64,000 nt of DNA from Adineta ricciae. Its lineage: Eukaryota; Rotifera; Eurotatoria; Adinetida; Adinetidae. The position numbers and the translations under genes were made by a program. The notes beneath the pieces are model-generated. The model did not search any database. It was given only the letters and a program-made list of their open reading frames with translations, and was not told where the DNA came from. Of this stretch, positions 3,286 through 47,093 are shown piece by piece (position 1 is the first letter of the stretch; each line of letters opens with the position of its first letter). The stretch spans positions 60,910 through 124,909 of the forward strand of contig CAJNOJ010000275.1 of the NCBI GenBank assembly GCA_905250025.1, read 5' to 3'.

Positions 3286-3286
3286 G

Positions 3287-3598: not shown

Positions 3599-3599
3599 N

Positions 3600-18014: not shown

Positions 18015-18105
18015 AGTAGCTGCCTAATTCGACTTATAATGTAAGTGACCAATTCCTAGCACACTTAGGAATAGAAATAGATTTAGTTTTACTTATACCT
18101 ACATG
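18015..18105 (+). repeat. dispersed repeat M1, second copy
   Basis: Nearly identical to 3287-3376 and 46977-47064. It is followed at once by the telomere-like tract CCCCCACCCTCACCC (18106-18120). Confidence 0.85.
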
Positions 18106-18120
18106 CCCCCACCCTCACCC

Positions 18121-18436
18121 AAATCAAAGCAGGACTCGAACCTACATCTTCCGATATCCGGTCGGCTATTTTACCAGTTATAGTATTTGATTTTCTCCTT
18201 TGCTAGTTAATAACAACATATCAAAATTAAGAATAGATTCAAGATCTAAAGTTCAGGACATAAACGATCAAATGATTACCTACGTTGTTACGACCTTGTT
18301 GCGAATACAGATCTTAGTTCTTTTGTGATGAAGAAATCGAAAATGTAGTAACTCTATTGTTCTGATGATTTTTATATCTTGTTTAGATATATTTCATTTA
18401 TCGTGGATTGAGAGTTCTGTTTTGCTGATCTTTTTG
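18121..18436 (-). repeat. dispersed repeat M2, inverted copy, with tRNA-like end
   Basis: Reverse complement of 46347-46661 with scattered substitutions. Its left end holds the tRNA-like sequence at 18122-18192. It lies between an M1-plus-tract unit and repeat M3. Confidence 0.85.
18122..18192 (-). ncRNA. tRNA-like sequence (SINE head or tRNA pseudogene)
   Basis: 71 nt. The seven-pair acceptor AATCAAA/TTTGATT, the T arm GTAGG-TTCGAGT-CCTGC with a perfect B box (GGTTCGAGTCC), and an A-box-like TACTATAACTGG are visible. The D stem has a mismatch, the anticodon stem pairs in four of five positions, and position 33 is C rather than T, so a working tRNA is unlikely. Confidence 0.6.
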
Positions 18437-18581
18437 GATAAGTTTTTCATATTTATCTAAGCATATTGCTGTGGATACTTTGAACATATTCGAATCTTCT
18501 GTCTTGTGGACAAAATGAAAAGATTTTCTAACTTCGTAATCCTTCTCATCCTAAGTTCAAACTCACCCTCACACACCCTCA
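18437..18581 (+). repeat. dispersed repeat M3 ending in telomere-like tract
   Basis: Matches 46662-46796 in direct orientation (TTTTGGATAA...GTTCAAACTC) and runs straight into ACCCTCACACACCCTCA (18561-18581). Confidence 0.85.
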
Positions 18582-18692
18582 AGATGCCCGAAGGAGAATA
18601 TGATTTTATTTATTAATGATCTTCTATCACTGTGTTTCTACTTGACAATTTGAATTTGAAATAAAACAAATGTTTTCTTTTACCAGCAGAAA

Positions 18693-19931
18693 TTAACAGT
18701 TCTTTCGAACTTTAGAACGTCCTTTCTTTCGATTTATATAAAGAGTAATAATCGCACCACTGATACCGCCTAAGCCAGCACCAGCAGCAGCACCAGCAGC
18801 GGCAGTAGCGATTGCACAAGGGCCTAGAACAACACCGACAGCGCCACCGAGAACAGCACCAGCTACACCCAGAGATGCTGCAGAAAGACCGCTACCAATA
18901 AGAACACTCAAGCCAGAATTATCACCACACGGTTTGCAAGGTATTGCACAATCTATTTCGTTATCATTTTTGCTACATTTGTATTTATCGCATAACTCGT
19001 GCTTGACAATTTTGTAGCCTTTTCCTACTTTCTTACAGATTCCTTTTTCATCTTCAAGTTTTTTCCAAAATTGCTGGCATTGTCCCTTTAGACCTGCTTT
19101 TTTCTCTTCTTCGGTTGCTACTTGCTCTTTTACCAATTCCAAATACACCATCATATCTTGATATCGTTTTTCTTGATTTTTTCTAAAGACTGCATATGCT
19201 TCTGTCATTAGCATTACTTGAAGTTCGAACGTTTGTTTATTATTTTCTATCTCCAAATATTGACGTCGTATCGCTTCTCTCAACAGGCAAAGTTCATTGG
19301 AGCGCACGATGAGTTCAACTTGTAGTTTTTGGCAACTTTCGCGATGCTCTGCGATAAAATAAAGCAATCGATTACGTGTTGCATCAAACGTGTCGTTATC
19401 TCCGGAATTGAATGCATCGAGGAAAATCATATTTTCCAATGAGATTGGCATCGGGTTCAACAACTTTGTAAGCAATGCCAAAAATCGCCCTTCGTACGTT
19501 GGTGATCGTTTGTTTGGTACATCGTTCAAGAGAAATATTAAAGATGTACACGGAAACTTGTAGGCTTCTTGAAGAGCTCTGAACATGATAATATCATCCG
19601 GTTGCGGTCTTCCATCCACTTGTGTCCATACAAACACAACAATCGACAGAGGATATTGTTCAAAGACTTTCATAATTTCGCGTTTGTTACGCTCGATTTG
19701 TTTTTGATTTGTTTCGATCAATCCTGGCATGTTGTATACAAGAAGATCACTCGATCCAGTATCGATTCGGTGGTAATCTACGCCAGATTTGATCCCTTCT
19801 CCTCGAGCACATGGTTTGAATATTTCATACCCAACTATCAGGTTGCCAATATAACTTTTATCGACTTCAGTATTACCCAGAATGATCAAGCCGTACTCTG
19901 GTTTTTTGTTTGGAACGCAACTTGATTCCAT
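18693..19931 (-). CDS. AIG1/GIMAP-like GTPase with degenerate P-loop
   Basis: An intact 412-residue frame. Residues 13-30 (YGLIILGNTEVDKSYIGN) align with the P-loop of AIG1/septin-type GTPases (consensus GxTGxGKS), but both internal glycines are replaced (E22, D24) while K25-S26 remain. The switch II motif reads NMPGL for DTPGL. The G domain (about 1-190) is followed by a long helical region with likely coiled coil (about 200-300) and a Cys-rich patch (CDKYKCSK, CAIPCKPCG). Residues 345-400 are a Gly/Ala-rich hydrophobic segment, then a basic tail. AIG1 proteins act at intracellular membranes, and the tail could insert there. Weak or absent GTP hydrolysis is inferred from the motif changes. 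Confidence 0.75.
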   Translation of the reverse strand: MESSCVPNKKPEYGLIILGNTEVDKSYIGNLIVGYEIFKPCARGEGIKSGVDYHRIDTGSSDLLVYNMPGLIETNQKQIERNKREIMKVFEQYPLSIVVFVWTQVDGRPQPDDIIMFRALQEAYKFPCTSLIFLLNDVPNKRSPTYEGRFLALLTKLLNPMPISLENMIFLDAFNSGDNDTFDATRNRLLYFIAEHRESCQKLQVELIVRSNELCLLREAIRRQYLEIENNKQTFELQVMLMTEAYAVFRKNQEKRYQDMMVYLELVKEQVATEEEKKAGLKGQCQQFWKKLEDEKGICKKVGKGYKIVKHELCDKYKCSKNDNEIDCAIPCKPCGDNSGLSVLIGSGLSAASLGVAGAVLGGAVGVVLGPCAIATAAAGAAAGAGLGGISGAIITLYINRKKGRSKVRKNC

Positions 19932-20584
19932 CGCTGCAACAACCGTTTTATCGAAAATTAAGATTAAATATTTTAGAAAGAATTGAAAGAAGCATCTAAT
20001 ATACGTACGTATATATGCGAGCGGGGAGATTATGTTTTATCAAGCACACAAAAAAAAACACTTTCTTTTACGACAACGGTTCGAGTTTCACTGTGAATTT
20101 CGACTTGAGAGAAAACAAAAGCTTCAACACGAGTTCTTTATGTCCACATATGAGAAGTAAAATTGACTAAGGTAAATATACTCGCGATGAAAAGAAAATG
20201 ATAAAGAGTTTTGATGAAATCAAATCTGTTTGAACAAGGCGAGTCATCGCCGAGATCAAATTTTCTCCCATCGGGTCCGGTGGGAATTTATCAGAAAGTA
20301 TTGAATTCATCACCTTCGGCGATGATACAATCTGCCAATCCGTTTCCAAAAGAAAACTTTCAAATAACTTTTATTTATGATGGAATTCATATAAGAACTT
20401 GGTAACGCTGGACTGTTAGGCGCAATATCTACGCCCCTGATGCGGGTCTGACACAATAATGATGTTCATTTTTTTCACTGGGTTCGCAAGAAAAAAACTA
20501 CTCTTTATATTTCCACTACACAATATCGCTGAACAGAAAATGTCAGCTTGTATTCAAACTTATCTTCGCTTTATTCATTGTTTT
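19932..20584. other. intergenic; one unclassified short frame
   Basis: Mostly non-coding. 20211-20405 (+) is a 64-codon frame with reasonable codon use (ends FQITFIYDGIHIRTW) that I cannot classify; the opposite strand is open too. Nothing else is seen. Confidence 0.3.
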
Positions 20585-23500
20585 TTCGAACATCTCTGAA
20601 AATATGTGAGCTAACCACAATAATAACAGTTTATATGTTAATGAAGGATACTGAAAGTTCAAATAATTCCTGAGCGTAATATATGACGAATCAAAATCAG
20701 CTGAAATCACCAAAAATCAAAAAAGAAATCAGTTTATTCTCCCCTTCGGGCGAAATCTCATCAACTTCATCTAGGTCTAGAATAATAATTTTCATTTTCA
20801 CGTTACATAAAATGTAAAAAAAAACAAGAAAAGCAAATCAATAATCTCCTTTGTAGATCTGATTCAATATACTTAATATTCTTTGGCATGTTTCCATCAT
20901 GCATTATAAGCAGGACGTGTCATGTTCATAAAACATTGTTGATATCTTAAAAATGTGTCTTGATCTTAGAGAGAATATAATCCTTATCATTACTTTGTAC
21001 ATGCTTTTGAAGAAATCTTAACGATTTTCTATGCTTTATCTATTAAAAATTAGTCTTAGAAAAGAAAAGCCACGATTATATAAGAATCTTCACACTTTTT
21101 TCTTCGTTTCTAAGGTTTTTCCAAATAAATAAGCAAATAGTTTCTAGAAAAATCTTTCAAATTGATTGATAATACTGTTTGCCAGAAGTATTTTTCTTAG
21201 AGTGGACATTTTCTCTTCCTTTTTATTATTTGAGCGAGTACAATTTTCTTGAAGACCAAAAAGTTCATTGTAAATCGAGAGACTGTAGAGAGTTCACCCC
21301 TTCTAGCCGAACTGTATAGATTGTTTTCAAAGATTTCACTCTCCTCTTTAAATACTTGCTGCACTTGCGATCGTTACTTTCAAAGTACAGAAAATAGACA
21401 CAGATCAAAACTATCTTTAAAGTTACTCTATCGTATATCTACAGACTTGTCTATTCGACTATAATAAGTATAATTAAAGGACATCATTCGTGATATTCAA
21501 AAGATTTCGTCAGTGAAATCTGAAGGCTAGTAATGAGGAAAATATGAGTCTATATGTATAACATTAATTATTAGAGGGGGACAGGATGAATTGTCCTTTT
21601 CAAATTACGGTTTCTTTTTCAGCTTTTTTAAATTTCACCACAACAGTAAGAACTTTAACTGAAGACTAACAATGCTAAATAACAAGATAGAAGTTCATCA
21701 TGTAACGTATCTACAATAAAGTAAAACAAAAAATAACCTTTATTTTACACTATTATTTCAGTCTTCATCAAATAATTCAAATTTAGTTCAAATCCCAGAT
21801 ACTCAATGAAGAACATCGTATGTATACGGCATTGTTGAATCTTGAGATCGCCCGAAATCACATTCATGTGAAGGGTGTCTTGAGAGTGGACTATGTTAGC
21901 AAGAATAAAGTTTGAATGAGAACTCGTTTAAGATCTTTATCGATAGAGTGACTTCTATAACTGCTGACGTAGCATGAAGTGAAATAAATTGTGTATATTG
22001 GGATGAGGGTTCTTCTACAGATGTCTACCGCGGGTGAACATTTGCCGTTGTCGCGCCACGATAGCTAGAAAAAAATGCTGATGTCTTGAACATTGCTGAT
22101 TTNNNNTTTCGAACATCTCTGAAAATATGTGAGCTAACCACAATAATAACAGTTTATATGTTAATGAAGGATACTGAAAGTTCAAATAATTCCTGAGCGT
22201 AATATATGACGAATCAAAATCAGCTGAAATCACCAAAAATCAAAAAAGAAATCAGTTTATTCTCCCCTTCGGGCGAAATCTCATCAACTTTGTCTAGGTC
22301 TAGGATAATAATTTTCATTTTCACGTTACATAAAATGTAAAAAACAAGAAAAGCAAATATGAAATATGTAGTATTGACGTTTGAACATATCACAGATTCT
22401 AGAAAGCAAATCAACAATCTCCTTTATAGATCTGATTCAATATACTTAATATTCTTTGACATGTTTCCGTCATGCATTATAAGCATGACGTGTCACGTTC
22501 ATAAAACATTGTTGATATCTTAAAAATGTGTCTCGATCTTAGAGAGAATATAATCCTTATCATTACTTTGTACATGCTTTTGAAGAAATCTTAACGACTT
22601 TTTATGCTTTATCTATTAAAAATTAGTCTTAGAAAAGAAAAGCCACGATTATATAAGAATCTTCACACTTTTTTCTTCGTTTCTAAGGTTTTTCCAAATA
22701 AATAAGCAAATAGTTTTTAGAAAAATCTTTCAAATTGATTGATGATATTATTTGCCAGAAATATTTTTCTTAGAGAGGACATTTTCTCTTCCTTTTTATT
22801 ATTTGAGCGAGTACAATTTTCTTGAAGACCAAAAAGTTCATTGTAAATCGACAGACTGTAGAGAGTTCACCCCTTCTAGCCGAACTGTATAGATTGTTTT
22901 CAAAGATTTCACTCACCTCTTTAAATACTTGCTGCACTTGTGATCGTTACTTTCAAAGTACAGAAAATAGACACAGATCAAAACTATCTTTAAAGTTACT
23001 CTATCGTATATCTACAGACTTGTCTATTCGACTAATAAGTATCATTAAAGGACATCATTCGTGATATTCAAAAGATTTCGTCACTGAAATCTGAAGGCTA
23101 GTAATGAGGAAAATATGAGCCTATATGTATAACATTAATTATTAGAGGGGGTCAGGATGAATTGTCCTTTTCAAATTACGCTTTCTTTTTCAACTTTTTT
23201 AAATTTCATCCACAACAGTAAGAACTTTAACCCGTCTACTACCAGCGTGGGTCATTTTTGTCCATTCTGTTGAGGGAGTATACAGGAATGAAAAAAGTAT
23301 GGTAGTAGACGGGTTAATTGAAGACCAACAATGCAAAATAACAAGATAGAATCCCAGATACTCAATTAAGAACATCGTATGTATACGGCATTGTTGAATC
23401 TTGAGATCACCCAAAATCACATTCATGTGAAGGGTGTCTTGAGGGTGGACTATGTTAGCAAGAATAAAGTTTGAATGAGAACTCGTTTAAGATCTTTATC

Positions 23501-23634
23501 GATAGACTGACTTCTATAACTGCTGACGTAGCATGAAGTGAAATAAATTGTGTATATTGGGATGAGGGTTCTTCTACAGATGTCTACCGCGGGTGAACAT
23601 TTGCCGTTGTCGCGCCACGATAGCTAGAAAAAAA
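20585..23634. repeat. ~1.5-kb non-coding block present twice around NNNN
   Basis: 20585-22102 restarts at 22107 and runs to 23634 with scattered substitutions and small indels; 22103-22106 is NNNN. A third partial restart follows the N at 23635 (to about 23880). The 71- and 80-codon frames at 21249 and 22822 are the same weak frame in both copies. Two alleles placed in tandem by the assembler would explain this. The second copy alone carries a MITE at 23231-23313. Confidence 0.8.
23231..23313. mobile_element. 83-bp piggyBac-like MITE in TTAA, empty site present
   Basis: Perfect 13-bp inverted ends CCCGTCTACTACC/GGTAGTAGACGGG, with TTAA on both sides (23227-23230, 23314-23317). The other copy of this block (near 21657) reads AACTTTAACTGAAG with a single TTAA, exactly the pre-insertion site. 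It is a clean insertion polymorphism between the two copies. Confidence 0.85.
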
Positions 23635-24184
23635 NAAATCACATTCATGTGAAGGGTGTCTTGAGAGTGGACTATGTTAGCAAGAATAAAGTTTGAATGA
23701 GAACTCGTTTAAGATCTTTATCGATAGAGTGACTTCTATAACTGCTGACGTAGCATGAAGTGAAATAAATTGTGTATATTGGGATGAGGGTTCTTCTACA
23801 GATGTCTACCGCGGGTGAACATTTGCCGTTGTCGCGCCACGATAGCTAGAAAAAAATGCTGATGTCTTGAACATTGCTGATTTCTCCATAAAAAAAAAGA
23901 TCCCAGGAATGAGGGATCTTAATCTCTCGATTATTCGGTGTCCCAACGGCAATACTATTTGAGGATAAACTGATGTTCTAAGACTTACCGATACAGTCTT
24001 TGTGTTACCTATTAGAAAATATTAACCCAAACAAGAGGTATTATCTGGGAAGGATTACTCGTAAATTTGACTCAACTAGATACGAATTCGTTTTGATAGA
24101 TATTACAAACCAACGTTGGTCTGAATCCTTAGATTAATTACTAAGAAAAACAAAAAGTTTTAGCAAACTTTTAGGTTCTTACAT

Positions 24185-24471
24185 CGTCACAAAAAATGAT
24201 CAATGTGTATTGTATTTTCCATTGTAATCCTGGTTTTTAACTATTCTGATCATACCGATTCCGACAGTTTTTCTCAAAAAGAAAACAAAAGATACGTCCA
24301 CAACAATACTGACAACTACAGCAACAACTGTGATGGTTTCAACAACAACTACAACGCAGACAGTACCTACGACAGAGATTGAAGCAACAACAATAACCAC
24401 CCAGCCAATAATGACGACAGAAATGGAAACATCCGCAACATGCATATCGAATATGAACGAGATTTTACAAA
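24185..24471 (+). CDS. NHL-repeat protein, N-terminal TM and Thr-rich exon
   Basis: The frame reads a hydrophobic segment (WFLTILIIPIPTVFLKKK), then a Thr-rich mucin-like stretch of about 50 residues, then CISNMNEILQ. This is the usual front part of bdelloid membrane-anchored NHL proteins. A candidate donor after 24471 joins in phase to the exon that starts after ACAAACAG (24724 or 24946), giving ...NEILQ-K-FNKWEQEAK. The true start is not certain: a TAA precedes the hydrophobic segment, so an upstream exon is likely. Stalk and anchor for an extracellular beta-propeller is the probable role. Confidence 0.5.
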
Positions 24472-24723
24472 GTTCCTTTTTATTTTGAATGAATTGAATG
24501 GGAGAAATTCTTCTTTTCAATCAAAAATTCTCTCTCTCTAACTGCAATGAAAATGGGATTGAAAAAACATCATAGAATTGAGAGAAGAAGATATCTGTTC
24601 TTTTTTTTTTGAGTTACAACGTTTTGAGATATAAATTCTCCTCAATTAAAGAGTTTTGCTTTATTTCTTATTTTCAAAGAAACCTATTAGCAAAAATAAT
24701 TTTCACTTTGTATTTACAAACAG

Positions 24724-25692
24724 AATTTAACAAATGGGAACAAGAGGCGAAGACCGTCGCGGCAGGAAATGAAAGGAGAGAAGAATTAAATCAACTCAAA
24801 TACCCTCACNCGATATCTGTTCTTTTTTTTTTGAGTTACAACGTTTTGAGATATAAATTCTCCTCAATTAAAGAGTTTTGCTTTATTTCTTATTTTCAAA
24901 GAAACCTATTAGCAAAAATAATTTTCACTTTGTATTTACAAACAGAATTTAACAAATGGGAACAAGAGGCGAAGACCGTCGCGGCAGGAAATGAAAGGGG
25001 CGAAGAATTAAATCAACTCAAATACCCTCACGGAATCTTCGTTGATAAAAACAAGAGCATTCACATGGCGGATGCCGGCAACAATCGAATTATAAAATGG
25101 AAATATAATGCGACAGAAGGAGAAATCATTGCTGGTGGGAATGGACAAGGAAATAGAACAAATCAGTTAAATTTTCCAACAAGTATGATTGTGGATTCAG
25201 AAAAGAATTCTCTGATCATTTTCAATATATCTAACGAGCGAGTGATTCAATGGCGGAATCAAAATGGACAAGAAATTCTCTTTGAAAACATTTGGTGCCA
25301 AGGTCTAGCGATGGATAAATACGAGTATATTTATGTTTCTAATTGTCGTAATAACGATGTCAGAAGATGGAAATTTGGAGAAAAAGGAGAAGGAACATTA
25401 ATCGCTGCGTGGAAATGGTAAAGGAAGTGGGTTTGATCAATTGGATGAACCTTACGGTTTGGTTGTCGATCATTGCGGTCAAATATGCGTGGCTGATTCG
25501 GAAAATGATCGAATAATGCGTTGGAGCAAAGGGACGAAACAAGGTGAAATTGTTGTTGGTGGAAATCACAGAGGAAAGGGGTGAAATCAATTCGATGATC
25601 CTCGTGGTTTATCATTTGATTTGGAAGGAAATCTTTATGTCGCTGATTGTGACAATAATCGAATTGAAGCATTTTCGTTAATATCTGATTAA
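24724..25692 (+). pseudogene. NHL-repeat protein, copy A (broken)
   Basis: NHL repeats form extracellular or scaffold beta-propellers. The first blade reads GIFVDKNKSIHMADAGNNRI, then several more units (GLAMDKYEYIYVSNCRNNDV, GLSFDLEGNLYVADCDNNRI). 24724-24809 is a partial first copy, cut by the N at 24810; 24946-25692 is the long one. Near 25410 a one-base deletion shifts the frame, and TGA (25582-25584) interrupts the last unit where copy B has TCA. If the N joins are assembly artefacts, this copy and copy B are alleles. Copy A keeps more repeats than B but is broken. Confidence 0.75.
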
Positions 25693-29089: not shown

Positions 29090-30186
29090 ACAATCTTTTT
29101 TTCTGATGGATTCCTCGATATAGTTATTGTTATTCATAAATAGCGCTCGTTCCCTGTGACTCGCTTCACCCTCAAGATATAAATTATCTCACATAGTGAT
29201 GATGATGATGACTCTGCTAGTAGCGTCTGATGGTTACCATGGTTGTAATCATCAACAGCTTACAACAAGAACGACACGAATCGAAACATCATCTATGATC
29301 GATAGTTTTAAACAATTATATTTTTTGTTTCATTAATATAAATCATACGGGTTTCAGATCAATAAAAAGACTCACAATCAGTACACGAATGCTTGTAAAT
29401 AGTAATAACATATTAGCGGCAGAAAAACTGTTTTGATGATAAATACCAATGCAATTATACAAGACAAGACAAAGGAGAAAAACAGATAGAAATTGAATAT
29501 AAAGTAATTAGTACTATCATTGACTCTGAATGTCAAAGAATTCATCGAAAAATAACACAAGTTCTGACAGAAGACTTAGCTTCAATTGACACCAGCTTTA
29601 TCTTTATATTTGGGTATTCCAGCTGAGTAATCCACCATCAGAGAAAAGATGACTTTGAGAATTAATGAATCTTCCCAGCATATCATCAATGGTACCACTA
29701 CAAACGCAAAAACTCATTCCAGAAAACAACGCAAGTGACTAGTACATAGAAATATATGTCGCATACTTTATGCAAAACTTGATATATGAACCGGATCAAG
29801 TGGTGTAATGAAATCTGAAACAAAAGCAACGATTCACCAAACAATTTCAAAACTAATATGTGTATTATATAAAGTAAAAGTAATCACTAGTAGCAATATT
29901 GTAAGAAAAGATTCGTCTGATCTCTAATCGTCAAACACAAAATGTGCAACCCGATTCTGATTTATATACCCACACGCTTCCGTATAATTCTTATTTCATT
30001 TATTTTCTCAACTTTTTTCTTCTTTTATTATTTATTCTTGTGTGAATATTTTTAAGTGTTTATTGCTGAATTACAAAAAAACAATTTTCCTATAATTCAC
30101 GCCATGAAAAACTAACAAAGTAAGACATTTAAAAATCTTTGAAAAACTTTTGTTAGTTTTCCTTTTTTTCTCAGTTTCCCGTGGCT
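29090..30186. other. intergenic, nothing recognised
   Basis: AT-rich, with a CACCCTCA motif at 29169 and a short GATGAT run near 29200. No coding frame. Confidence 0.45.
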
Positions 30187-30496
30187 TTATTCTACCACAC
30201 CGGCTTCATCTTTTTTCTTTGCAATCTCTTTATCCAGGTCTTCAATATCACTTTCAATATTATCGGCAATTGTGTTTTGCTTGGCAGCATCCTCATTGTT
30301 CTCCGCGTTTTCACCTTTCTCCAGTGCCTTATCCAAATCTTCCTCCAAAGTGGCCTTTTCTTTCTCCAGCTCTTTGAGCTAAAAAACGCAATCATTTTAA
30401 TACTTTCGACATTCATGACAATCTAAAAATAATTCAAACTACCTCTTCTTTTGCTACTTCCTTTTCCTGGTGAGTAACTTGTGCTTGGCGAGACAT
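30187..30496 (-). CDS. small highly charged coiled-coil protein, two exons
   Basis: Exon 1 is 30496-30443 (MSRQAQVTHQEKEVAKEE). A 64-nt GT-AG intron (30442-30379) follows, then exon 2, 30378-30187, ending VVE-stop. The product is 81 residues, almost all charged or helical (LKELEKEKATLEEDLDKALE), with heptad-like spacing and no hydrophobic core, signal or TM. I do not recognise a family. The composition resembles hydrophilic, stress-type helical proteins, but no LEA motif is evident. Exon 1 and part of exon 2 are repeated after the N at 30554 (30555-30718), probably an assembly duplication. Confidence 0.65.
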
Positions 30497-30554
30497 TGAT
30501 TATCGCAGTACTGGTTTAATGCTTCTTTGTGAATGAATGAGAATAAAAAGTACN

Positions 30555-30718
30555 CCAAATCTTCCTCCAAAGTGGCCTTTTCTTTCTCCAGCTCTTTGAG
30601 CTAAAAAACGCAATCATTTTAATACTTTCGACATTCATGACAATCTAAAAATAATTCAAACTACCTCTTCTTTTGCTACTTCCTTTTCCTGGTGAGTAAC
30701 TTGTGCTTGGCGAGACAT
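30555..30718 (-). pseudogene. partial repeat of the coiled-coil gene after N
   Basis: Restarts sequence 30329 onward directly after the single N at 30554; identical over exon 1, the intron and the start of exon 2. Confidence 0.7.
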
Positions 30719-31168
30719 TGATTATCGCAGTACTGGTTTAATGCTTCTTTGTGAATGAATGAGAATAAAAAGTACCGAGATTAGGATATGGTTATATCTT
30801 ATCAAAAAACGAAATCCTTTTCCTCCTTCTCGTATAGCGCAAACAATACTCAAGCCACAGACATACTCTGCGTGTGAAGAATGAAACACAGAAATGTGAG
30901 ACTGATATTAAGATGGTTCCATACCATCATGTACATCAATCTACATTCTGTTTAATTTCTTCTCTATACGGATTTATCTATTCCCCTTTATCTATATGGT
31001 GTTTAATCAACAGATGGTGTTCATATAACTTTGAATGTATATTCATCCTTACATACATTTCGATCATCACACTATTTTTGCTTAATATTATACAACTACT
31101 ACAGAGACTTTATTAAAGGTTTCAGTTATGTTCAAGAATACAGTGCATGACATTCTAATAATGGAATT

Positions 31169-33090: not shown

Positions 33091-34728
33091 TTAGAGAGGA
33101 TATTTGGATGAATTTTTTAAGAAAACGAAGAAAGTATATTCTCGAAGCGAGTATTGTATTCCCATCTGCTTGACCCAATTTTCTACTACGCCATAAATCC
33201 CACAAACTCGATAATCACCGTGATCAGGAATTGTTAGCTTATGTTCACTTCCACCAGCAATATCACCAAACCATTCACTACGTTTTTTATTGGTAACAAT
33301 CTGTACAGCATCGATCCACACACCACTTCGAACACCGAAACCTTGAATAAACTCGCCATTCTCCATAGGAAAGTCGTGTGACGATCCACCTCTCTTTCCA
33401 AAGAGAACTGAATGTTCTTTAGTGAAGAATTCTAAACCATCCAAAGCCAAACCCGAATGAAATACGACTTCGATCAAAGGACCAGTAGCGTGTGAGGGTG
33501 TGTTGATTTTACCTTCTCCGTTAACTCGACTTCGTAATTCTTCCTTCCATAAAATAACTTCGGCAGGTGGATTTTCAAGATAATCTATCCATGATTTTGC
33601 AACTTTATCGCGTTCAAGATAAAATTCAATAGCCAAAATGCCGTTCGTTGATTTCAGTAGAATACCTTCATCAACCGCAAAACATTGTATGTGACTTTCC
33701 GAGAACATCTCATCATCACACCGTTCTGTTCATATGGACAACCAAGTGCATGTCCTATTTCGTGCAGCATTGCTCCAAGACCAACATTACATGCAATCCA
33801 ATATTTATCACCTTCTGCATCAATACCAGTGTTTCGTGTCAACCAACATCCCTTTCATTCGTAAAACATGGAATGACATCTTCCAAAGTTGCTGGCCAGG
33901 AAAAAAGAATGTGAGAACCAAAGATTCCTACCGAATATTGTGCATCGATGCTCCCCGAACCTAGTGCTGCATGGTCTGTAATCAGATTATCTTCATAATG
34001 TGAGTTTAAGAGTAGAACTGCGACATAATTTCTTTCTTCCTGAAATTTAGACCGAATAGCTTCTAATGCAATATCGAATAGAATGTTCTTGTTTTTATCA
34101 TTCAAATTCTGTTGTGCCCGACTTGGATGTCGAATTTGAGCAGTTGTATATTTACTTTTTAGAACATGAATCATTACTGTCTCTCTTTGAGACTGATCTT
34201 CACCACTGAGTGTGTCACGTTGGTACGATTCATCAAGACGAAATGTTCGGTGACCAAATCCATTTGAAAACATTTGAGAAGCTGTGTACGTTTGCCATAA
34301 ATATCCTGCGAGACGTTATTTTTTGATAGCCGTATCTAAATTAGGTGGATATTGGCAGTTGGGAGTGTCGTCGAATGTCAGCGGTGAATCACAGCCAACG
34401 AGAATGCATAAATTCAGAGGAGGATTTTGTAAAAGTGGAACATAATTGACTATCCAAAACGATTCCTACGTCTATGCTGATCATCGCTGAAACTTAGTTG
34501 AATCCGATTTTCGCCAGATGATAAATGTATTAATATTTTGAAACGTCCATTTCTTACTGGAAACGTTTGTGTTGGAAAATTATTTCTATCAGCAATGATT
34601 TGAATGTCACCATTGGTAGTTATCGATGATGATCCGCATGTTCCTTCGACCAGACGTAAACGACAATGAACTTCACTATCCGGAGGATGAGAAGTGATGC
34701 ACGGCGTGAAATCGACAGCATTTGCCAT
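33091..34728 (-). pseudogene. metallopeptidase (PF12044-like) with C-terminal jacalin-like domain, broken
   Basis: The order of segments matches the fungal YIL108W-type family: an N-terminal region (MANAVDFTPCITSHP), INYVPLLQNPPL-like block, AGYLWQTYTASQM, then the zinc site HEIGHALGCPYEQNGVMM and a jacalin-like lectin domain (QGFGVRSGVWIDAVQIVTN, DYRVCGIYGVVENW). Breaks: a frame change near 34455, TAA at 34316-34318, and further frame changes near 33840 and 33700. The third zinc ligand expected in HEXXHXXGXXH is Tyr here. It either decayed recently or carries several base-call indels; the mutated ligand argues for decay. It would have been a peptidase bound to a glycan-recognition domain. 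Confidence 0.75.
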
Positions 34729-35076: not shown

Positions 35077-35840
35077 TTATTCTGATCGAAGATAATTAGC
35101 AACAACTTCTCCAACTCGAGCATATCCTTTCTTATTTGCATGAACGGCATTTTTGGGATGAAAATAGTCATCAGCATAAGGATCAACTGAAAAGATTTCA
35201 TGGCCAGCAAATGCTGTTGTGACAGCTTCAATGAAACCGATGCCAGCTACAGTAGCTGCTTCTTTAACAGTTTCGGAAAGATGTTTGACTAATCGATGAG
35301 CATCAGCCTCGTTTGGAATCTTATTTCCAGTGCTAACAACATCGACGTATGGAATAGCATAGACTTTCGTTGTGGGTAAAACCGCTGCTTTAATTGATTT
35401 GTATGTCGAGATCCAGTTAGGTTTTAAACCAGTAACTTTAGCGGCAACTGCTGTATAATTATTTTTGGTGATGATTTGATTGAATGCCCCTACCAGACCC
35501 ATATCATTTCCACCAATAGTAACAACAACATGAGTCACGTTAGACAAGATAGGTTTGACACTGTTTAATTGGCCAGCAATGGCACTCATTTTTACACCAT
35601 CTCTAGCAACATTTCTCACGGACCATCCTAATAGATTAGCTGCAACAATTGGATACGAAACAGGATAACCGCCAGCAGTACCAGCTGCAGTAGCTGAATC
35701 GCCCAAACCAATCAGAAATTTTGCTTAAAAGGAAAGATTAATTGGTTGCGTGTTAATTATGATCTCGACAAACCTGTTTGTTGCTGATATGAACCAACAA
35801 TAAGTTGACAAAGGAGAAGAGCGAAGAAAGCGGCCAACAT
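35077..35840 (-). CDS. secreted SGNH/GDSL hydrolase, two exons
   Basis: Exon 1 (35840-35774) encodes a signal peptide (MLAAFFALLLCQLIVGSYQQ). A 50-nt intron follows, then exon 2 (35723-35077). Product 237 residues, the family's usual size. Catalytic blocks: GLGDSATAAG with Ser32 as nucleophile, Gly in VARDG (block II), GGND (Asn95), and DYFH with Asp208 and His211. It is a secreted lipase or esterase of the SGNH superfamily; the sequence style recalls bacterial or fungal enzymes. The substrate cannot be predicted. All exon boundaries are GT-AG and in phase. Confidence 0.88.
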
Positions 35841-39147: not shown

Positions 39148-39204
39148 AATAAGCTCGAAATATGTATTTTATTTGCACTCTTAACTATGAAAATAAACAA
39201 GTTT

Positions 39205-39994
39205 TTAATCTGATTTTTGTAAACGTGCAAGTTCGTCTCGAATTGAGTCTTTCATTGTTGCAAGTGCTTGATGATCTCGCCACATATCTTCATTTATTTT
39301 GAATGTGTCGATTGAGTTTCTAGTGATCGTTGCAATTTCCGGTCCGGATGATTCATGCGTTGGATTTTCAAAGTAATTGGGAAAACATTTGGCCAGAGCC
39401 GAGCGACCATAATCAAAAAGTTTTCGATGAACCGTAAACACATTGGCTGATGTAATTTTTCGAATGAAACAGGCAGTAGCGAACACAACACCTAGCAGTG
39501 GAGCAAGAGAAACTGCTAAGGTGCTCTGAATACCCAGTTGTGGAAAAGAAGCTGGATGGCAATGAACGATGATCAATCCGATGGTAATGCCAACCAGAAG
39601 TGACGAAGCAACACTGCCGGTTATAATACAAGCATATTTTGCTTTCATTCTTTCATCACTCTGAGACAATACTCCGAGCATTTCAGTCAACGAACCAGCG
39701 ATAACTTTACATTGTCCTACTAGGTTTTCAAAGGCCAGTGACCATGCTTCACGAATTTGGACAATTTTTTTGTGGATCCGATGTTTGCAATGCCTCTTCG
39801 ATCAAAAACAGTGCTTTGTTGTAAAATTCGATTTTCAATCGTTTGTGCTCATTTTCGACTTGATAGAGAATCTTCAAACAATTCGTACGATCATCGTCAG
39901 TTAATGCTTTTGCCCTTTGAATATTTTCTCGAATTTCAGTTACTAAACCTGTAACTTGTATAGTGATAAAATCTTCAAGTTCTTCATTTGCCAT
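39205..39994 (-). pseudogene. two-TM helical protein, one-base frameshift
   Basis: MANEELEDFITIQVTGLV opens an amphipathic helical N-terminal part. After DPQK the frame needs a one-base shift at a run of seven A (39767-39773, minus-strand sense) to continue as IVQIREAWSLAFENL and on through two hydrophobic helices (SVASSLLVGITIGLIIVH and a second at STLAVSLAPLLGVVFATACF) to an acidic-basic tail. The paralogue at 40528 has six A at this point, so the extra A is the lesion or a base-call error. Corrected length would be about 260 residues. No known family; a membrane hairpin protein. It stands head-to-head with its paralogue, 533 bp apart. Confidence 0.6.
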
Positions 39995-40527
39995 GTTTTA
40001 ATCTACAACGGATTATTCTCTTTTATGTTGGGAAGTATCGCAAGACGGCTGATTATGTTGTTCGTATTTTTGAAAAAGAGCGATATAAGGTAAAGTGAGT
40101 CCTCAAATGCAAACGATATTGAAACGCTCACAGTTTATACTAATGTTCTTAAACAAAGAGTGAGAGTTAACTGTATTTTCTTACAGAAAGAAAATAGTAA
40201 GAACATTTCTTTATACAATAAAACGGTAAGATTAAATTGCCTTTTATGAGGAACTGAAAGACGAAAGAGGATGTCACCATACTAAGTATATATGCAAAGC
40301 AATCAATAAGAAGAAAAAATATTGACACAGACAACCTATTTCCAACACGAAAAAGGTAACCTCATGTATGTGCTTGCGAACCGATCGTCGCTGCATGTAA
40401 GATGATTTATTTTCATGTTGTTTTCTTGTGCAAAGTGTAATCCACAAATGCGTTTTGACAGCTTCTGCTAAGCTGTGTCAGATGACTATATGAACTATAT
40501 AGTGAGATTTCGTTTTTAGATTTCAAA

Positions 40528-41233
40528 ATGAACAAGGCAACTGAAGAACTTCTAGATATCGCCACAAAGGAGACCAAAAATCTACTGGCTGAAATTCAAT
40601 ATGACATCAAGGTGACAAAAGCAATGACTGACGATGATGATCGGTCAAGCATTGGAAACAACGGATCCACAAAAAATTGTCCAAATTCGCGAACCTTGGT
40701 CATTGGTGTTGGAAAATCTGGTACGTCAATGTAGAACGATTGCTTGTCCATTGTTAGAAATATTACGAGTCTTGTCTCGAAAAGACGCCAAACTTGGAAA
40801 AAAATATGCGAGATTTCTTACAGGTGCAGTCTTGAGTTCTTGTTTATGCGGTACGGTTATTGTAATGTTAATTGCTCACTGACATCCCATTTGTTGTGTC
40901 TAGCTAGCAGCCGAGGTTGTATTTGTAGTTGCTGGTGGAGCATTGTTAGCTATAGCAGTGGCTGTTGGTTGTATCACAGATGTGTGTCAGTGGCAACGTC
41001 TACGCACAGTTTATAGTCAATGTTCCGATTCCGTTCGCTTGATGTTGGTTAGTTGTTTTCCAAGCTGTTTTGATGGTGCAACTAAAGATCCAACTGAAGC
41101 AGAGCTGGCAAGTATCATCGAAAAGGCAGTTAACACCCTCAATATCAAGGAGGACACGTGGTTTAATCATCCAGCATTGCAAATGTTGAAAGGATCTGGC
41201 GAAGTCGAACGCGATCATTTGAAAAATTCGTGA
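40528..41233 (+). pseudogene. paralogue of the two-TM protein, decayed
   Basis: Same order as the minus-strand gene: helical start (MNKATEELLDIATKE), DPQKIVQIREPWSLVLENL, hydrophobic helix (VLSSCLCGTVIVMLIAH), second helix (VVFVVAGGALLAIAVAVG) and tail (INTLNIKEDTWF-like). About 28 residues after the TDDD stretch are deleted relative to its partner, and in-frame stops occur near 40734, 40880 and 40903. The 90-96-codon open pieces are segments of this one gene. Confidence 0.6.
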
Positions 41234-41942
41234 CTGACATATTTTTGTAGTGTACGTAGAATGTATATTCAATCCTGAAATAAAAATATAGCCAGTTAAT
41301 TAGGAATTTCCTAGACAGTGATAGAGTACATTCTCTTTCACGATGTTGAATACCAGACGAACGATAGTCGTGTTGTCGTGAAAGCAAAAGCGATGTCAAT
41401 ACTATCGAAGGCAGAATAGAAGGAACTGTTGGAGAAAAGAATTTGTAAAATTTTCCGAGACATTAACAAAAAGAATGAGAAAATAACATTTTGAGCGATT
41501 GTTGTCCTGTAGGATGGGTGAGGGTATGATTATACTGTGGAAAATGAGCATATTGATGCACATCTTAACGCTCAAGATAGAAGAAAAATCAGATTGGAGA
41601 ATAATTCGTCGTATACATCTTTTTGTACATGAGTCATGATTTATTACATATGGAAATATTCCTTTTCTTTTCTTCTTTCTTATAAAGGATGATATATGTT
41701 GTCGTCACGTGGAATGAGAGGAAGAAAACTGACGTTCTACATGGGTTTATTCCTAATTCTGGCCGGCTTATGTTATTACAGAGAGGAAAACAACAAACAG
41801 AATATCGCTGTATAAATAGTATGTGATTAGACGCTCTCATATTATTTACCCATCAGTTATCGATAGAAACATATCTCCACAACCATTGGATACGTTTCAT
41901 GTAAAAGTCTATTGCAAGTGTTCATTCTTCTCACAAAGATTT

Positions 41943-43670
41943 ATGTCTAATACAAACAAATCTTACCTTGATACATTACCCACGGAAATTCTTTATCGAA
42001 TTTGCGATGGACTTGATTCAGAGACAATTCTCTTTTCGTTTCGTCGCGTATGCAAACGATTTCATACAATCAGCAAAATTTACGATCGTTATCGCTTGGA
42101 TCTATGTTATTTTTCCATGTCTGATCTACGTCGGATGGAATATTTAATTGATCCGAAAAATGTAACTTCACTTACATTGGCAAACGAAGACAAATCAAGC
42201 GGTCTAATGGAATACTTCCTCGATCACTTTTCTCTTCGAACTTTTAGCCGATTAGATTCAATGACTTTCGCTTTGCATCACAAGATAGATTTCGATAGGT
42301 TTGCAAAGTTCATTGAGCAATCGTCTTTGACAACGCTCTCAATATGGCTTTGTAACTACTCGTTGACAAGTTTTCAAAACTTGATAGAAGCACTCAAATC
42401 ATGTCGATTAAAGAATCTGATCATCCTTGATAGAGTTGACTGGACAAGTCTTATGTTCATCGTCAATACGTTAACTGATTTACAGAAATTAGTTTTGAAA
42501 TCGTTTCACAAACAACCATACGATAATCTTGCTGAATCACAAGTCAACAGTGAAGAAGTCAGTAAATTAACTTCACTTTCACTAAACATGAAAGCTGAAG
42601 TCGAAATACAATACATCGAATCGATTCTGATGCGTTGTCCTCACTTACAATGCTTTCAATTGGACAGCTCAGGAAATAAAGCGGATAAATCGTTATTTGA
42701 CGGTCACAAATGGGAAAATTTGATTGAAACTAGATTACTTTTGTTGAAACAGTTCGAATTCCATTTTTCTTATCATCCACCGAGATTTGGAAACATTTTC
42801 GACGTTGACGCGTCGTTCGAGTCATTTCAAACACCATTTTGGCGTGATCGAAAACAATGGTTTGTTCGATGTGATTACGTGGCTAGTGAAGACAAGAAAT
42901 GGTACGATGTCTATACAGTACCAATGAACATTCGAGAAGAATTCGATCTTTCTTGCCATCGAATGACAATCTTAGATTCGATGTTGCCAACAATGGACGA
43001 AAGCAAAGCGAACGTCGTCCATGTACATCGATTAACTTTGAATTTGAACCAATTAATGATTGAAAATACTCAAACTAGGGTAATTAGCATTTGAAATTTC
43101 GAAAAAACATACAAATCTTTTTATTTCTAGACTAATTTACTAGCGAAATATCAATTCCGCAATGTGAAAGAGCTAGTTTTGATTATTGATCAAGAGTGGT
43201 CGAACGATGCCATCGAATGCCTCTCGACAATGATTGTCTTATCAAATCTCGAGAAAATACATTTGAAGATCGAAGATAAATGTAAATTCGTCAGGGATTT
43301 GTATACAAAATTGAAAGGTTTACTCAAACAAGCATGGGATCTTCGTTCGTTGAAAATAACTTCTACGAATCCTAGAACAAGAAAACAGATCATTCGGGAT
43401 AAAATCGCGTTGAAACTATCACGTTACACTGACGAACTTGATATTGAAGTCCAGGATTTGGATGATGCCAAAGCCATATTGCAAAACGAGAAATACTTAT
43501 CACATCTCACATTTCGGCCGATCCTGAATGACAATGTTAACTTAGTTCATGAGATCGAAGATTGGCTTCCACATACGAAAAGACACTATACAGTAGAATC
43601 GGCTGTTAACTGGTTATGTGATGGTGGATGTTGTACTTCAAGCAAAGGGGTGTATATATGGCTCGACTAA
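41943..43670 (+). CDS. F-box/LRR-like protein, two exons
   Basis: Exon 1 (41943-43079) starts MSNTNKSYLDTLPTEILY; this ATG is chosen because the F-box begins within 12 residues, as in its relatives. Intron 43080-43130 is 51 nt (GTAATT...TTCTAG), phase 0. Exon 2 ends at 43670. Product 558 residues: F-box at 9-50 (LPTEILYRICDGLDSETILF), then repeated leucine-rich units (LTTLSIWLCNYSLTSFQNLI, LQKLVLKSF, LTSLSLNMKAEVEIQYIESI) and a C-terminal helical segment. Predicted SCF adaptor. Intact in every exon, unlike its relative 3 kb upstream. Confidence 0.9.
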
Positions 43671-45352
43671 AGTATGCGTGCAAACGCTCGTTTTTATTCC
43701 CTCGACTGAAACGAGGGTCATATGAAAAAAAGTTTGTTTGTCTGTCCGTCTGCCTGTGTCAAAGTCAAAGGTCAAAAAAACATTTTTTGCGAAAACGTTC
43801 AAACTTCAATAAAGGATCGTTTGGGAGGAGTCTTGGGGCTGGATGTTGATGGTGGAGTAAAGGACGGGATGAGAAGAACTGTGCCGGCGACGTCAAAGGT
43901 AAAAATCACTACTCCTTGTCCGAAATGCTTTAATTTTTTTTAAAAATCGCTTGAAATGGGTTCAATCATTGACCGAACAACGCTTGTATATCCGAGAGAT
44001 ATGCCGTACTGCCGTAGCTCGAAATTTACTAAATCTCTAATTTGATTATATCAGTAGTGTATTGTGAAGTGGTACGAGGACTAATTAGATGTTCTTTCAA
44101 GCGAAGGGAGAATCGTATGAGAAAAGATCGTTTGAGTGGTGTGTGCTTGCATCATGATTCAAAACCAATATTAACAGAAACTTCACGAATAATGTAGGGA
44201 GATAGTTGAGACTGATCGGTAGCTATGGTAGATTACAAAACTGACCAATCAGGTATCACGCGATGTAAGGCTGAGAAATTAGGTATGTATCTAGGATGCA
44301 TGAATCAGGCATTGAATACCTTAGATGCTTTTGTCGTATGACCCTCTAGATGAGAATCAGGGTGGATTTCCCCTTATAACGTCTAGTAAACAAAAGACAA
44401 GCTCCAGCTGAAAGCTTTCTTGGTATAGATTTAGTTGAAGTAGTTAAATTGTGTGTGAAGTGTCGAAGAGGAAGGCGAGTGCCATCTGAGGACGTGTATA
44501 TACTATAAAAAATATCGAGCAGTCGGGAGTGGCGGACCGAAGGGACGCCGATGGCCGACTGAGAGATCAGTGTATTGATACATCTTTTGGAAGGGTCTTA
44601 TAACAAGAGTCGAATTAAAATTGAATAAGTCGAGGGCTTAGCGAGTCGGCCTCGGTGAGCGTTACTTGTTATAACCGACTGAGCGCTTTCTACTCTAGAA
44701 AGGTCAAAATTATCGTATTTGTCCAATTACTTTTCGAATTCGAAAAAGCGAACGTTCTAATCTAGTGCATCTTGTAGAGCATGAAATTCTGTACGAAATT
44801 CCTTATATGATAATCTCTGGGAATAAAATTTTTCCCTAATGTTTTTCATTACAAAGGTATACACTACAATATAGGTGGCGGAGTATAGTATTTGGGGGTG
44901 CTATATAAGGAAAATTTTTGAAAGACCTCTATAATTTTATACCAAAATGTAGCCTAACACTTGGGCTTTCGGAATATATAAGACTATTGGTACTTAACTC
45001 TGTTAGTGAAAAAGATTCTGAACAACAATGATTCCGAAAAAATTGCATTTTTAAGTATATCGGTAAAGATACGCATAAAAATGCTGATCGTAGTACACGA
45101 GAAGCTTAGTGAAATTTACCGAAATAACTTCACATATTTTCATACATATATATGGACTACAAACGCTGAAAGTTTCAGTCAATTTGGAGATACTTGTGTA
45201 TAGAGTGGTTGAGACCCCATGGAAATACGCGTTCGTCTTCATATACATCCGCAATGCAAGGTCATTTGGTTTGAAACACATCAACGTTGAGGTAGTTGTT
45301 AGGTTTGGTGAATATCTACTTCTTATCAATCGAGTTTTTTCTCCAACTTTTC
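43671..45352. other. non-coding; one inverted copy of the GC-rich repeat of 50 kb
   Basis: No convincing gene. A hairpin-like CCCTCGACTGAAACGAGGG occurs at 43699. 44510-44720, on the minus strand, resembles the repeat units at 50490-50690 (shared GGTCNGCCACTC and AACAAGTAACGC elements). Confidence 0.45.
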
Positions 45353-45955
45353 ATGTTTGAATAGAAATTATTCATAATTGGTTGTTTAGTGTATACCTAC
45401 TTCCTATCGACTCATTTAGTTTTCTCCAACTTTCCACGCTTGATTAAATGATAATTATAATCGGTAATGAGTAATGAAATATTAGTAATTATTAGTGATC
45501 ATAACCGTGTATCTTTTTGCTTACCTGTAGAGGGAAAAAATCCAGATAAAGTAACTCAAGCATACTATGAATCAGAAAAGATTCGTACTTAAACGGCCAG
45601 AAAACGGAAGAAAATATCAATTATGCACGCATCTCCCTGCGAAGTAAACATCGATACATTTTCTTTATTTCTGACTTTTCGAAATCTCGAGACGTGTTTG
45701 AAACCCTGAGGATAAGTGCCTAATTTTTCGTTCAGAGCGAGAAAAGCTTCACAATCCATCGTGAAAGTATGAGCGCGGTCGTACGTATTTACTACGTTCT
45801 GCACACACTCGAACATCATTTTATTCATCATTTATGCCATCAAAATCACTTACCACATTATAATTCGCGTATTTATCATTTGAGAAAACGATAGGAAACG
45901 AAATTAACACTTCCATTAGTAAATTTTGTATTTCCTAAAATACCATTGATTAGTA
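45353..45955. repeat. 603-bp segment, first copy
   Basis: Repeated at 47094-47696 with identical length (no indels) and scattered substitutions. Contains an 80-codon minus-strand frame (45589-45831) that stays open in both copies but changes at seven residues. Confidence 0.9.
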
Positions 45956-46248
45956 AGGTGCACGTAATGCAAAATTCGAGTAAATTTTTTTTTTAGTTTT
46001 ATTACACATATTCTGATCCGCCAGATTACGCTGATCATGAATATCACGTTTCCGACAAAAATAGATGCCTTTTTCGTGACGAAAAATCGGCTACACTGGA
46101 AAGGTCCGTAAATGCATATATTAGCGACCCCTACGGGACATTAGCATCTTCGACATAATGATACGCTCTCGAGACCTCCTATTATTTTCTTCTGATTCAG
46201 CATCGAAAACTGGTCCAGAGAATTGACTGTTCATTCCTTCACAACCGT

Positions 46249-46328
46249 NNNNNNNNNNNNNNNNNNNNNNNNNNNNNNNNNNNNNNNNNNNNNNNNNNNN
46301 NNNNNNNNNNNNNNNNNNNNNNNNNNNN
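46249..46328. other. 80-base assembly gap
   Basis: Run of 80 N. The only gap in the window longer than four bases; sequence on its right is repeat M2. Confidence 0.95.
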
Positions 46329-46346
46329 AATAATAAAAGAAATTTC

Positions 46347-46796
46347 CAATGCCGCAAAACAGAACTCTCAATCCACGATAAATGAAATATATCTAAACAA
46401 GATATACAAAATCATCAGAACAATAGAGTTACTACATTTTCGATTTCTTCATCACAAACGAACTAAGATCTGTATTCGCAACAAGGTCGTAACAATGTAG
46501 GTAATCATTTGATCGTTTACGTCCTGAACTTTAGATCTTGAATCTATTCTTAGTTTTGATATGTTGTTATTAACTAACAAAGGTGAAAATCAAATACTTT
46601 AACTGGTAAAATAGCCGACCGGATATCGGAAGATGTAGGTTCGAGTCCTGCTTTGATTTGATGATCCTTTTGGATAAATTTTTCGTATTTATCTAAGCAT
46701 ATCGCTGTGGGTACTTTGAACATATTCGAATCTTCTGTCTCGTAGACAAAATGAAAAGATTTTCTAACTTCGTAATCCTTCTCATCCTATGTTCAA
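46347..46796 (+). repeat. dispersed repeats M2 and M3, same orientation
   Basis: M2 (46347-46661, AACAGAACTC...CTTTGATTT) and M3 (46662-46796, GATCCTTTTGGATAAATT...CAAACTC). The same two modules occur at 18121-18560, where M2 is inverted and M3 is not. M3 runs directly into a telomere-like tract in both places. Confidence 0.85.
46588..46658 (+). ncRNA. tRNA-like sequence (SINE head or tRNA pseudogene)
   Basis: Same 71-nt fold as at 18122-18192: acceptor AATCAAA/TTTGATT, A box TACTTTAACTGG, B box GGTTCGAGTCC, T loop TTCGAGT. By position the anticodon would be GGA, but base 33 is C and the D stem has a C-T mismatch. Two copies sharing the same defects argue for a retroposed or repeat-borne tRNA relic. 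Confidence 0.6.
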
Positions 46797-46817
46797 ACTC
46801 ACCCACACCCTCACCCC
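46797..46817 (-). repeat. telomere-like tract
   Basis: ACTCACCCACACCCTCACCCC, that is GGGTGAGGGTGTGGGTGAG on the other strand. It separates M3 from an EGF-domain fragment. Confidence 0.7.
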
Positions 46818-46976
46818 TATTTGTCCGAAAGGGTTTAGTGGAGATCGATGTGAAATACTAGATATAAAAATTATTCTCTCATGGGAAAATGATCTTTTAT
46901 CACAATCAATTTTTGTTCCTTTTATTCAAGTGATTCAAAATAAAAAGTCTGTAAGAGTAACTACTCTTCAAAGGAT
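46818..46976 (+). pseudogene. EGF-domain protein fragment
   Basis: Directly after the tract the frame reads ICPKGFSGDRCEI, the second half of an EGF-like domain. A hydrophobic, Asn/Lys-mixed stretch (IFVPFIQVIQNKKS) follows, of the kind that follows EGF modules in large bdelloid surface proteins. Both ends are abrupt: a telomere-like tract on the left and repeat M1 on the right. Confidence 0.6.
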
Positions 46977-47093
46977 TAGCTGCCTAATTCGACTTATAAT
47001 ATAAGTGACCAATTCCTAGCACACTTAGGAATAGAAATAGATTTAGTTTTACTTATACATACATACCCTCACCCACACCCTCACCCTCACCCC
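46977..47093 (+). repeat. dispersed repeat M1, third copy, plus telomere-like tract
   Basis: 46977-47064 matches 18015-18105. The tract ACCCTCACCCACACCC... at 47065-47093 is the longest CACCC-type tract here (29 nt). Confidence 0.85.

Follow-up and report, generated by a model that had tools for sequence, protein, structure and literature searches.

The window analysed here, a 64-kb stretch of Adineta ricciae DNA, contains short tracts built of TGTGGG and TGAGGG units, TGTGGG being the telomere repeat reported for A. vaga in an excerpt of PMC7943196; the type of repeat accords with a bdelloid. When runs matching TGWGGG were scored on both strands (+1 for a match, -3 for a mismatch), the whole window gave 18 runs with a score of at least 9 and 7 with a score of at least 12, whereas 20 dinucleotide shuffles averaged 1.7 runs at the lower threshold and never reached a score of 12. 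The tracts are thus real and more numerous than chance gives. An earlier note had placed four of them where unrelated sequences meet, and all four are present, C-rich on the plus strand and each at a module edge by self-comparison: 18110-18121 (score 12), 18562-18581 (two adjoining runs, 18562-18572 and 18572-18581, scores 11 and 10), 46798-46816 (score 19) and 47065-47092 (score 28). The five further tracts it listed also exist, at 8250-8281 (score 24), 55371-55392 (18), 60316-60328 (13), 41515-41525 (11) and 50068-50077 (10), but no module edge was recognised when their flanks were read. Since runs of 9 to 11 nt are also seen within open frames (at 33492 and 41133), the short tracts may be due to chance.

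Repeats at the 18-kb and 46- to 47-kb joints

Three modules, called M1, M2 and M3, surround the four tracts. M1 is a dispersed inverted-repeat element, and a half copy of it at 18013-18120 (plus strand), its left end, runs into the tract at the M1/M2 joint, 18110-18121. This half copy is 94% identical to a second one at 46973-47080 (plus strand), where the tract at 47065-47092 joins M1 to a 604-bp segment; neither half copy (loci L009 and L010, respectively) has a right end within 800 bp. A further left end of M1, at 3286-3598 (plus strand), contains the 60-bp unit in 4.3 copies and is cut short by one N at 3599. M2 occupies 18120-18425 on the minus strand, inverted with respect to its 97% identical copy at 46354-46660 (plus strand), the first part of which is itself inverted relative to another genomic locus (L064). 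Both copies include a tRNA-like part matching RF00005 (18121-18192, minus strand, 41.1 bits; 46588-46659, plus strand, 47.5 bits). M3, the 3' part of a tRNA-bearing repeat, lies at 18418-18581 (plus strand), where it ends in the tract 18562-18581, and at 46654-46817 (plus strand), with its own tract at 46798-46816; the first copy is 91% identical to 46654-46813.

The 604-bp segment is present twice on the plus strand (45352-45955 and 47093-47696, 96.4% identical), and its first copy is followed by a fragment (45954-46248, plus strand) that is 99% identical to a piece of another contig (C114:169652-169946). Between the second M3 tract and M1 lies a 155-bp piece (46818-46972, plus strand) with no other match among those listed (40 of 325 candidates scored). 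The label of EGF fragment that it had been given agrees with an EGF-like motif seen by eye, but its one 54-aa frame had no Pfam match at E<=0.001. Among the candidates scored, 40 of 325 for one window region and 40 of 248 for the other, no copy without the insert was found.

M1 and M3 in the genome

A genome search returned 36 matches to M3. The repeat to which M3 belongs is about 0.5 kb long; it contains a tRNA-like domain and a hairpin that covaries, and its C-rich end could pair with telomeric repeats by complementarity. Of 30 copies fetched, some of them near-duplicates at a single locus (C515, C708 and C954), 23 had the C-rich run at the end, compared with 0 of 30 on the opposite strand and 6 of 449 control windows; the other 7 copies had an end score below 9. 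Across 29 sequences, TTCAAAC-C-C was nearly invariant at the M3 end, and the tract past it varied from a few bases to more than 100. In the tRNA-like fold and hairpin, 28 alignment cells were changed on both sides, a number reached by none of 500 shuffles, and 92.5% of the cells were paired, versus 34 to 51% when the fold was slid. Two other measures of the same test were unremarkable: the number of pairs altered on either side alike was reached in 27 of 500 shuffles, and that of further pair types in 470 of 500. The Rfam match (RF00005) and the covariation together indicate that the tRNA-like fold of the M3 repeat has been kept by selection.

By eye rather than by HMM scan, no reverse transcriptase frame was recognised within 1.5 kb upstream of M3. 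RVT_1 matches numbered 150 genome-wide (all clades taken together), and some of them lay at most 10 kb from M3, on at least four contigs (C694, C363, C436 and C441). The end of M3 reads TTCAAACTCACCC, with no hammerhead directly before the tract. A hammerhead pattern matched 113 times in the genome, against 9 times when reversed, and both strict fits among the fetched loci were followed by a C-rich run. With Rfam hammerhead models, neither the window nor any of 18 loci gave a match at the cut-off, nor did any of 7 loci at E<=0.5. Some M3 relatives (L044, L047, L053 and L063) have a hammerhead-like stretch upstream, which by eye lacks a clear cleavage site.

M1 had 89 genomic matches, and the tract was carried by 25 of 30 fetched copies, compared with 3 of 362 controls and 3 of 30 on the opposite strand. 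The earlier claim that the tracts keep one strand sense relative to each dispersed repeat thus holds in the fetched copies of both M1 and M3. Since the right end of M1 comes after the tract in 11 of 30 copies, the tract is internal to M1 and, in such copies, needs no break; M1 is also often present as a left half that stops at the tract. A general rule that tracts lie in the middle of inverted repeats was rejected (1 of 28 tract loci, L001, versus 2 of 143 control positions).

Host-side starts of tracts across the genome

Telomeric-type repeats at internal sites gave 567 matches in the genome, versus 89 for the reversed pattern. We took the 100 places that come first in order of contig number (contigs C3 to C157); after removal of 4 duplicates, this left 96 distinct starts that are not a random draw. 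The first unit on the host side was TGAGGG in 88 of these and the second in 52 of 96, a comparison for which the Fisher test treats paired data as independent. Directly before the tract, ATCT was found in 14 of 96 starts, with 0.7 expected; this signature had been spotted post hoc in six loci (L006, L008, L029, L040, L042 and L045) before it was tested, and one of them (L006) is in the test list. The start ATCTTGAGGGTG, with two degenerate end letters, occurred 178 times, some of them coding, versus once for its reversed control, and the CATCT form 49 times versus none; here too, C was the preferred preceding letter (26 of 48). Only 20 of 98 single-start sites completed a second unit, and some single-unit sites look coding. 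Eight of the 13 ATCT sites that were read are bare tracts at which none of the collected repeats ends. We have not seen such a fixed host-side start described before; together with the variable tract length, it suggests that one RNA template may have been copied at broken ends.

In the window, ATCT directly precedes the TGAGGG tract of the first M3 (18582-18585, read on the minus strand), and this tract, 18562-18581, is the only one of the four with such a start, that of 18110-18121 not being ATCT. Among M3 copies, 5 of 32 have it. Two further window tracts do as well: a 9-nt tract at 29166-29178 (C275:90061-90090), which reads ATCTTGAGGGTGA on the minus strand, and one at 48417-48436 (plus strand, ATCTTGAGGGTGAGAGTGAG), identified by TGWGGG scoring and a check of the start.

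Other patterns were less useful. The count of TGTGGGTGTGGG alone (279 matches, 420 for the reversed control) says nothing because reversing the pattern yields this repeat again, in a shifted register, and GGGTGAGT plus flank (864 versus 607) was too loose for classifying distal neighbours. Three locus pairs with conserved flanks (L073 to L078) were considered as sources of a telomerase RNA, and no candidate was left: one pair was coding-like by eye, one was a decayed hammerhead end and one was plain non-coding.

Discussion

We consider it probable (about 0.6) that at each of the four tracts a DNA end has been joined to a mobile element with a telomere-complementary 3' end. Most of the fetched M3 and M1 copies include the tract, and on one strand, so that the edges are primarily those of elements and are accounted for mainly by their ends, not by free telomere healing alone. 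M3 RNA, ending in ...TTCAAACTCACCC, would pair with a G-rich 3' overhang, either of a chromosome end or of a broken end given a few TGAGGG/TGTGGG units; a reverse transcriptase acting in trans (Athena-type or telomerase) would copy it, and the product would become internal upon joining of the ends. The strict hammerhead fits that precede C-rich runs and the fixed host-side start also speak for this reading. Points against it are the lack of a hammerhead directly before the M3 tract, of a reverse transcriptase frame recognisable by eye within 1.5 kb upstream and of an empty site among the candidates scored, the low end scores of 7 of 30 M3 copies and the rarity of the ATCT start among M3 copies. 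The earlier interpretation is thus partly supported. Capture of telomere-associated retroelements finds good support at these edges, where Terminon 3' ends offer a parallel, while addition of telomeric repeats to broken ends draws indirect support from the genome-wide ATCT/TGAGGG start, which is seen in only one of the four tracts.

A possible but less probable reading is that the tracts are scars of RNA-templated repair, in which telomerase or some related enzyme reverse-transcribes its own RNA onto breaks, beginning at a preferred start beside the template (ATCT...), adds a few units and leaves the end to be rejoined, the elements being secondary users. The first-unit bias, the excess of ATCT, the near absence of ATCTTGAGGGTG and CATCT forms from the reversed controls and the bare tracts all point this way, and excerpts of PMC2246262 and PMC8537989 report a vertebrate precedent, telomerase RNA copied at break sites with fixed nucleotides beside the first unit. 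Against it, ATCT is absent from 82 of 96 starts and from three of the four tracts, few single-start sites reach a second unit, some are coding-like and no empty site was found among the candidates scored. It is unlikely, though less so than an artefact, that CATCTTGAGGGTG is a target favoured by elements, or a functional protein-binding motif, that predates the tract. Most ATCTTGAGGGTG sites do lack repeat continuation, and M3, half M1 and the decayed hammerhead end all adjoin CATCTTGAGGGTG, but target preference alone leaves unexplained both the bias of the first over the second unit and the variable-length tracts at bare sites. Chance low complexity or misassembly is very improbable: several direct duplications in the window flank a single N, and are probably assembly joins, and an 80-N gap lies within the 46-kb insert, but no N touches any of the four tracts, the runs exceed those of the shuffles, and M1 and M3 recur with tracts at dozens of loci.

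Returning to the tract starts, we tentatively propose that the genome keeps hundreds of small scars left by copying of a single RNA, probably that of telomerase, onto broken ends from a favoured starting point, that the scars spell the RNA beside the template (predicted ...CCCWCACCCUCAAGAUGG...), and that these ends are also exploited by short tRNA-bearing elements whose own 3' ends are complementary to telomeric repeats. If the start is a template signature, the sequence by itself would allow a count of sites healed by an RNA-copying enzyme, in a lineage believed to withstand extensive breakage, and the flank of the telomerase RNA would be predictable, with CCCUCAAGAU expected beside the template. 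Should it instead be a target preference, it would still tell how telomere-complementary elements land.

Several known systems resemble parts of this picture. tRNA-derived SINEs are short dispersed repeats that contain a tRNA-like domain and end in simple repeats of variable make-up. The M3 repeat shares these traits but has its tRNA-like part in mid-element and a tail complementary to telomeric repeats. Retrozymes are, like the M3 relatives, short non-autonomous repeats; some of the relatives share a hammerhead-like stretch upstream, but by eye theirs has no clear cleavage site. Terminons/Athena, the endonuclease-deficient Penelope-like elements of bdelloid rotifers, have C-rich sense-strand 3' ends in which (ACACCC)n or (TCACCC)n adjoins a hammerhead, with short telomeric stretches at joints and pieces of other sequence between units (excerpt of PMC6431247). 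M3 has such a C-rich end and the joints are alike, but M3 is about 0.5 kb long and has a tRNA-like domain, no hammerhead directly before the tract and, by eye, no adjoining RT frame, and M1 looks like an inverted-repeat DNA element. TERC-ITS, vertebrate interstitial telomeric sequences with telomerase-RNA pieces, differ in that many sites here are single-unit and that the candidates scored here included no empty locus; as excerpts of PMC2246262 and PMC8537989 describe for TERC-ITS, the sites here combine short internal telomeric repeats joined to other sequence with a small number of constant nucleotides next to the first unit.

Telomere-like tracts in the window

The window forms the final 64 kb of its contig (C275, 124,909 bp), in an assembly of 130 Mb and 1,033 contigs, and contained seven TGWGGG-type runs with a score of at least 12, versus none in 20 dinucleotide shuffles. 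The earlier note had placed such tracts exactly where unrelated sequences meet, and for the four that it named (18110-18121, 18562-18581, 46798-46816 and 47065-47092, all C-rich on the forward strand) the observation stands: all four are real and adjoin module ends drawn by self-comparison. The five others that it listed, near 8250, 41515, 50068, 55371 and 60316, also exist, with no module edge recognised on reading their flanks. The named edges chiefly represent mobile-element ends, in agreement with known bdelloid biology; short telomeric stretches are already described from bdelloid subtelomeres (PMC2861651).

Other features of the window include a reverse transcriptase fragment (RVT_1; 58702-59061, minus strand; E value = 1.7e-4, under the curated cut-off), separated by 1.3 kb from the 60316 tract, and a dispersed repeat of ~370 bp at 44300-44670 with many matches (72-97% identity). 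Direct duplications of ~222 bp (97-99%) flank single N's at 16746-17188, 23413-23856, 24590-25038 and 30333-30776, and are probably assembly joins rather than biology. Elsewhere, one of 28 tract loci (L001) has its tract at the centre of a 205-bp inverted repeat (98.5%).

Elements that carry the tracts

M3 (18418-18581 and 46654-46817) is the 3' part of a ~0.5-kb repeat with a tRNA-like domain. A search listed 36 matches (70-100% identity), and an alignment of 29 sequences showed a conserved end, TTCAAACTCACCC. Upstream, up to ~330 bp are common to several copies, including the tRNA-like domain, which Rfam matched in the window and in 9 of 18 loci searched (two of the nine overlap others) and which ARAGORN also called in the window. 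A head-to-tail M3 pair on contig C954 has starts 497 bp apart; inverted head-to-head pairs, in which the junction lies between the two tRNA-like parts, occur at C708:25051-25536 (L052/L057) and C515:45852-46526 (L050/L059/L060). Over 16 sequences the tRNA-like fold and the next hairpin showed 92.5% pairing, and both sides had changed in 28 cells (0/500 shuffles as high). Two other fold measures were unremarkable (27/500 and 470/500 shuffles as high), so that support comes from the paired cells, the both-side cells and the covariation score.

M1, a dispersed inverted-repeat element (18013-18120 and 46973-47080), had at least 89 genomic matches (40 of 178 candidates scored). Its right end, called at ≤6 edits within 800 bp, was present in 11 of 30 fetched copies, where the tract is internal to the element, and absent in 19, many of which go directly from the tract into other sequence. 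By eye, two copies with both ends (L014 and L016) have apparent 8- to 9-bp direct repeats at their flanks, and a third (L034) has none. The segment at 1843-1991 recurs, at 80-98% identity, close to the M1 copies of L013, L014, L016, L017 and L031.

A C-rich run (score ≥ 9) lay at the M3 3' end in 23/30 copies, versus 0/30 on the opposite strand and 6/449 control windows; the corresponding values for M1 were 25/30, 3/30 and 3/362, the fetched copies being partly non-independent (contigs C515, C708 and C954 each supply several). These counts indicate that the tract travels with the element. Its length past the conserved M3 end ranges from a few bases to >100. Two more repeat families end in C-rich tracts (L089, L093 and L106; L004 and L104).

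The joints at 46 and 18 kb are composite. The 46-kb insert is bounded by two copies of a 604-bp segment (96.4% identical) and comprises a fragment that is 99% identical to one place on contig C114, a gap of 80 N, M2-M3-tract, a piece of 155 bp for which no other match was listed (40 of 325 candidates scored) and M1-tract. M2 has opposite orientations in 18121-18581 and 46354-46817: inverted in the 18-kb copy, the block is 97% identical, a closer match than M3 beside it (91%), which suggests, from sequence comparison, that it may have moved separately from M3. Compared with locus L064, the 46-kb copy has the initial part of M2 in reverse orientation. Among the matches listed, there was no insert-free copy of either region.

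A genome-wide start signature

The part deserving follow-up is a start signature, ATCT directly before the first TGAGGG unit on the host side of the tract. Tract starts numbered 396 genome-wide versus 67 in a reversed control. Among 96 distinct starts (the first 100 places by contig number, C3-C157, less four duplicates), the first unit was TGAGGG in 88 and TGTGGG in 8, compared with 52 and 44 for the second unit (Fisher test treating paired units as independent, P value = 4e-9). ATCT preceded the first unit in 14 of these starts, versus 0.7 expected from base composition (binomial test, P value = 1.5e-14), and was absent in 82.

The pattern ATCTTGAGGGTG, with two degenerate end letters, occurred 178 times versus once in the reversed control, a count that includes noise since some single-unit sites look coding; at 98 distinct listed sites, the second unit was completed in 20 and the repeat broke off at once in 18. 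The CATCT form with W and G occurred 49 times versus 0 in the control, and a preceding C was again favoured (26/48). Two ATCTTGAGGGTG sites (L080, 192-219; L083, 190-219) have ~28 nt in common, the latter coding-like by eye and thus noise.

Thirteen ATCT sites were read: eight are bare short tracts, at which no repeat among the fetched loci ends, four lie in repeat families known from other loci and one is within a minisatellite. Seven other sites comprised two bare tracts, two repeat ends, one intronic-looking and two coding-looking sites (by eye). The signature adjoins M3 in 5/32 copies (control windows, 7/2,400), as well as a half M1 (L029) and a decayed hammerhead end (L075/L076); in the window it lies at 18581 (minus), 29174 (minus) and 48421 (plus).

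Preference for one start and one first unit, combined with variable length, is the pattern expected if one RNA were copied from a set position. Target preference could likewise give rise to ATCT, but would not by itself account for the first-unit bias. In repaired vertebrate breaks, telomeric repeats are reported to come with nucleotides adjoining the template of the telomerase RNA (PMC2246262, PMC8537989). No mention of such a signature for rotifers was found in titles and abstract openings, a partial coverage outside which the primary Athena and Terminon papers fall.

Comparison with Terminons

As reviewed in PMC6431247, Terminon 3' ends carry a hammerhead and, after it, (ACACCC)n or (TCACCC)n, able to pair with a G-rich overhang; telomeric stretches truncate copies, host genes are trapped between units, and the cargo includes GDSL enzymes. 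A GDSL-like lipase frame in the window (35077-35724, minus strand; PF13472, E value = 7.4e-15) is as likely to be of host origin as to be such cargo. Hammerhead-like patterns are frequent in the genome (113 versus 9 reversed), and both strict fits among the fetched loci then run into C-rich runs. The C-rich tracts of variable length at M3 and M1 resemble Terminon 3' ends, but the tract of M3 is not immediately preceded by a hammerhead. Because of this, and because no reverse transcriptase frame was recognised by eye within 1.5 kb upstream, we did not class M3 among the Terminons. At least four M3-bearing contigs have RVT_1 matches within 10 kb of the element, and M3 may be a non-autonomous partner.
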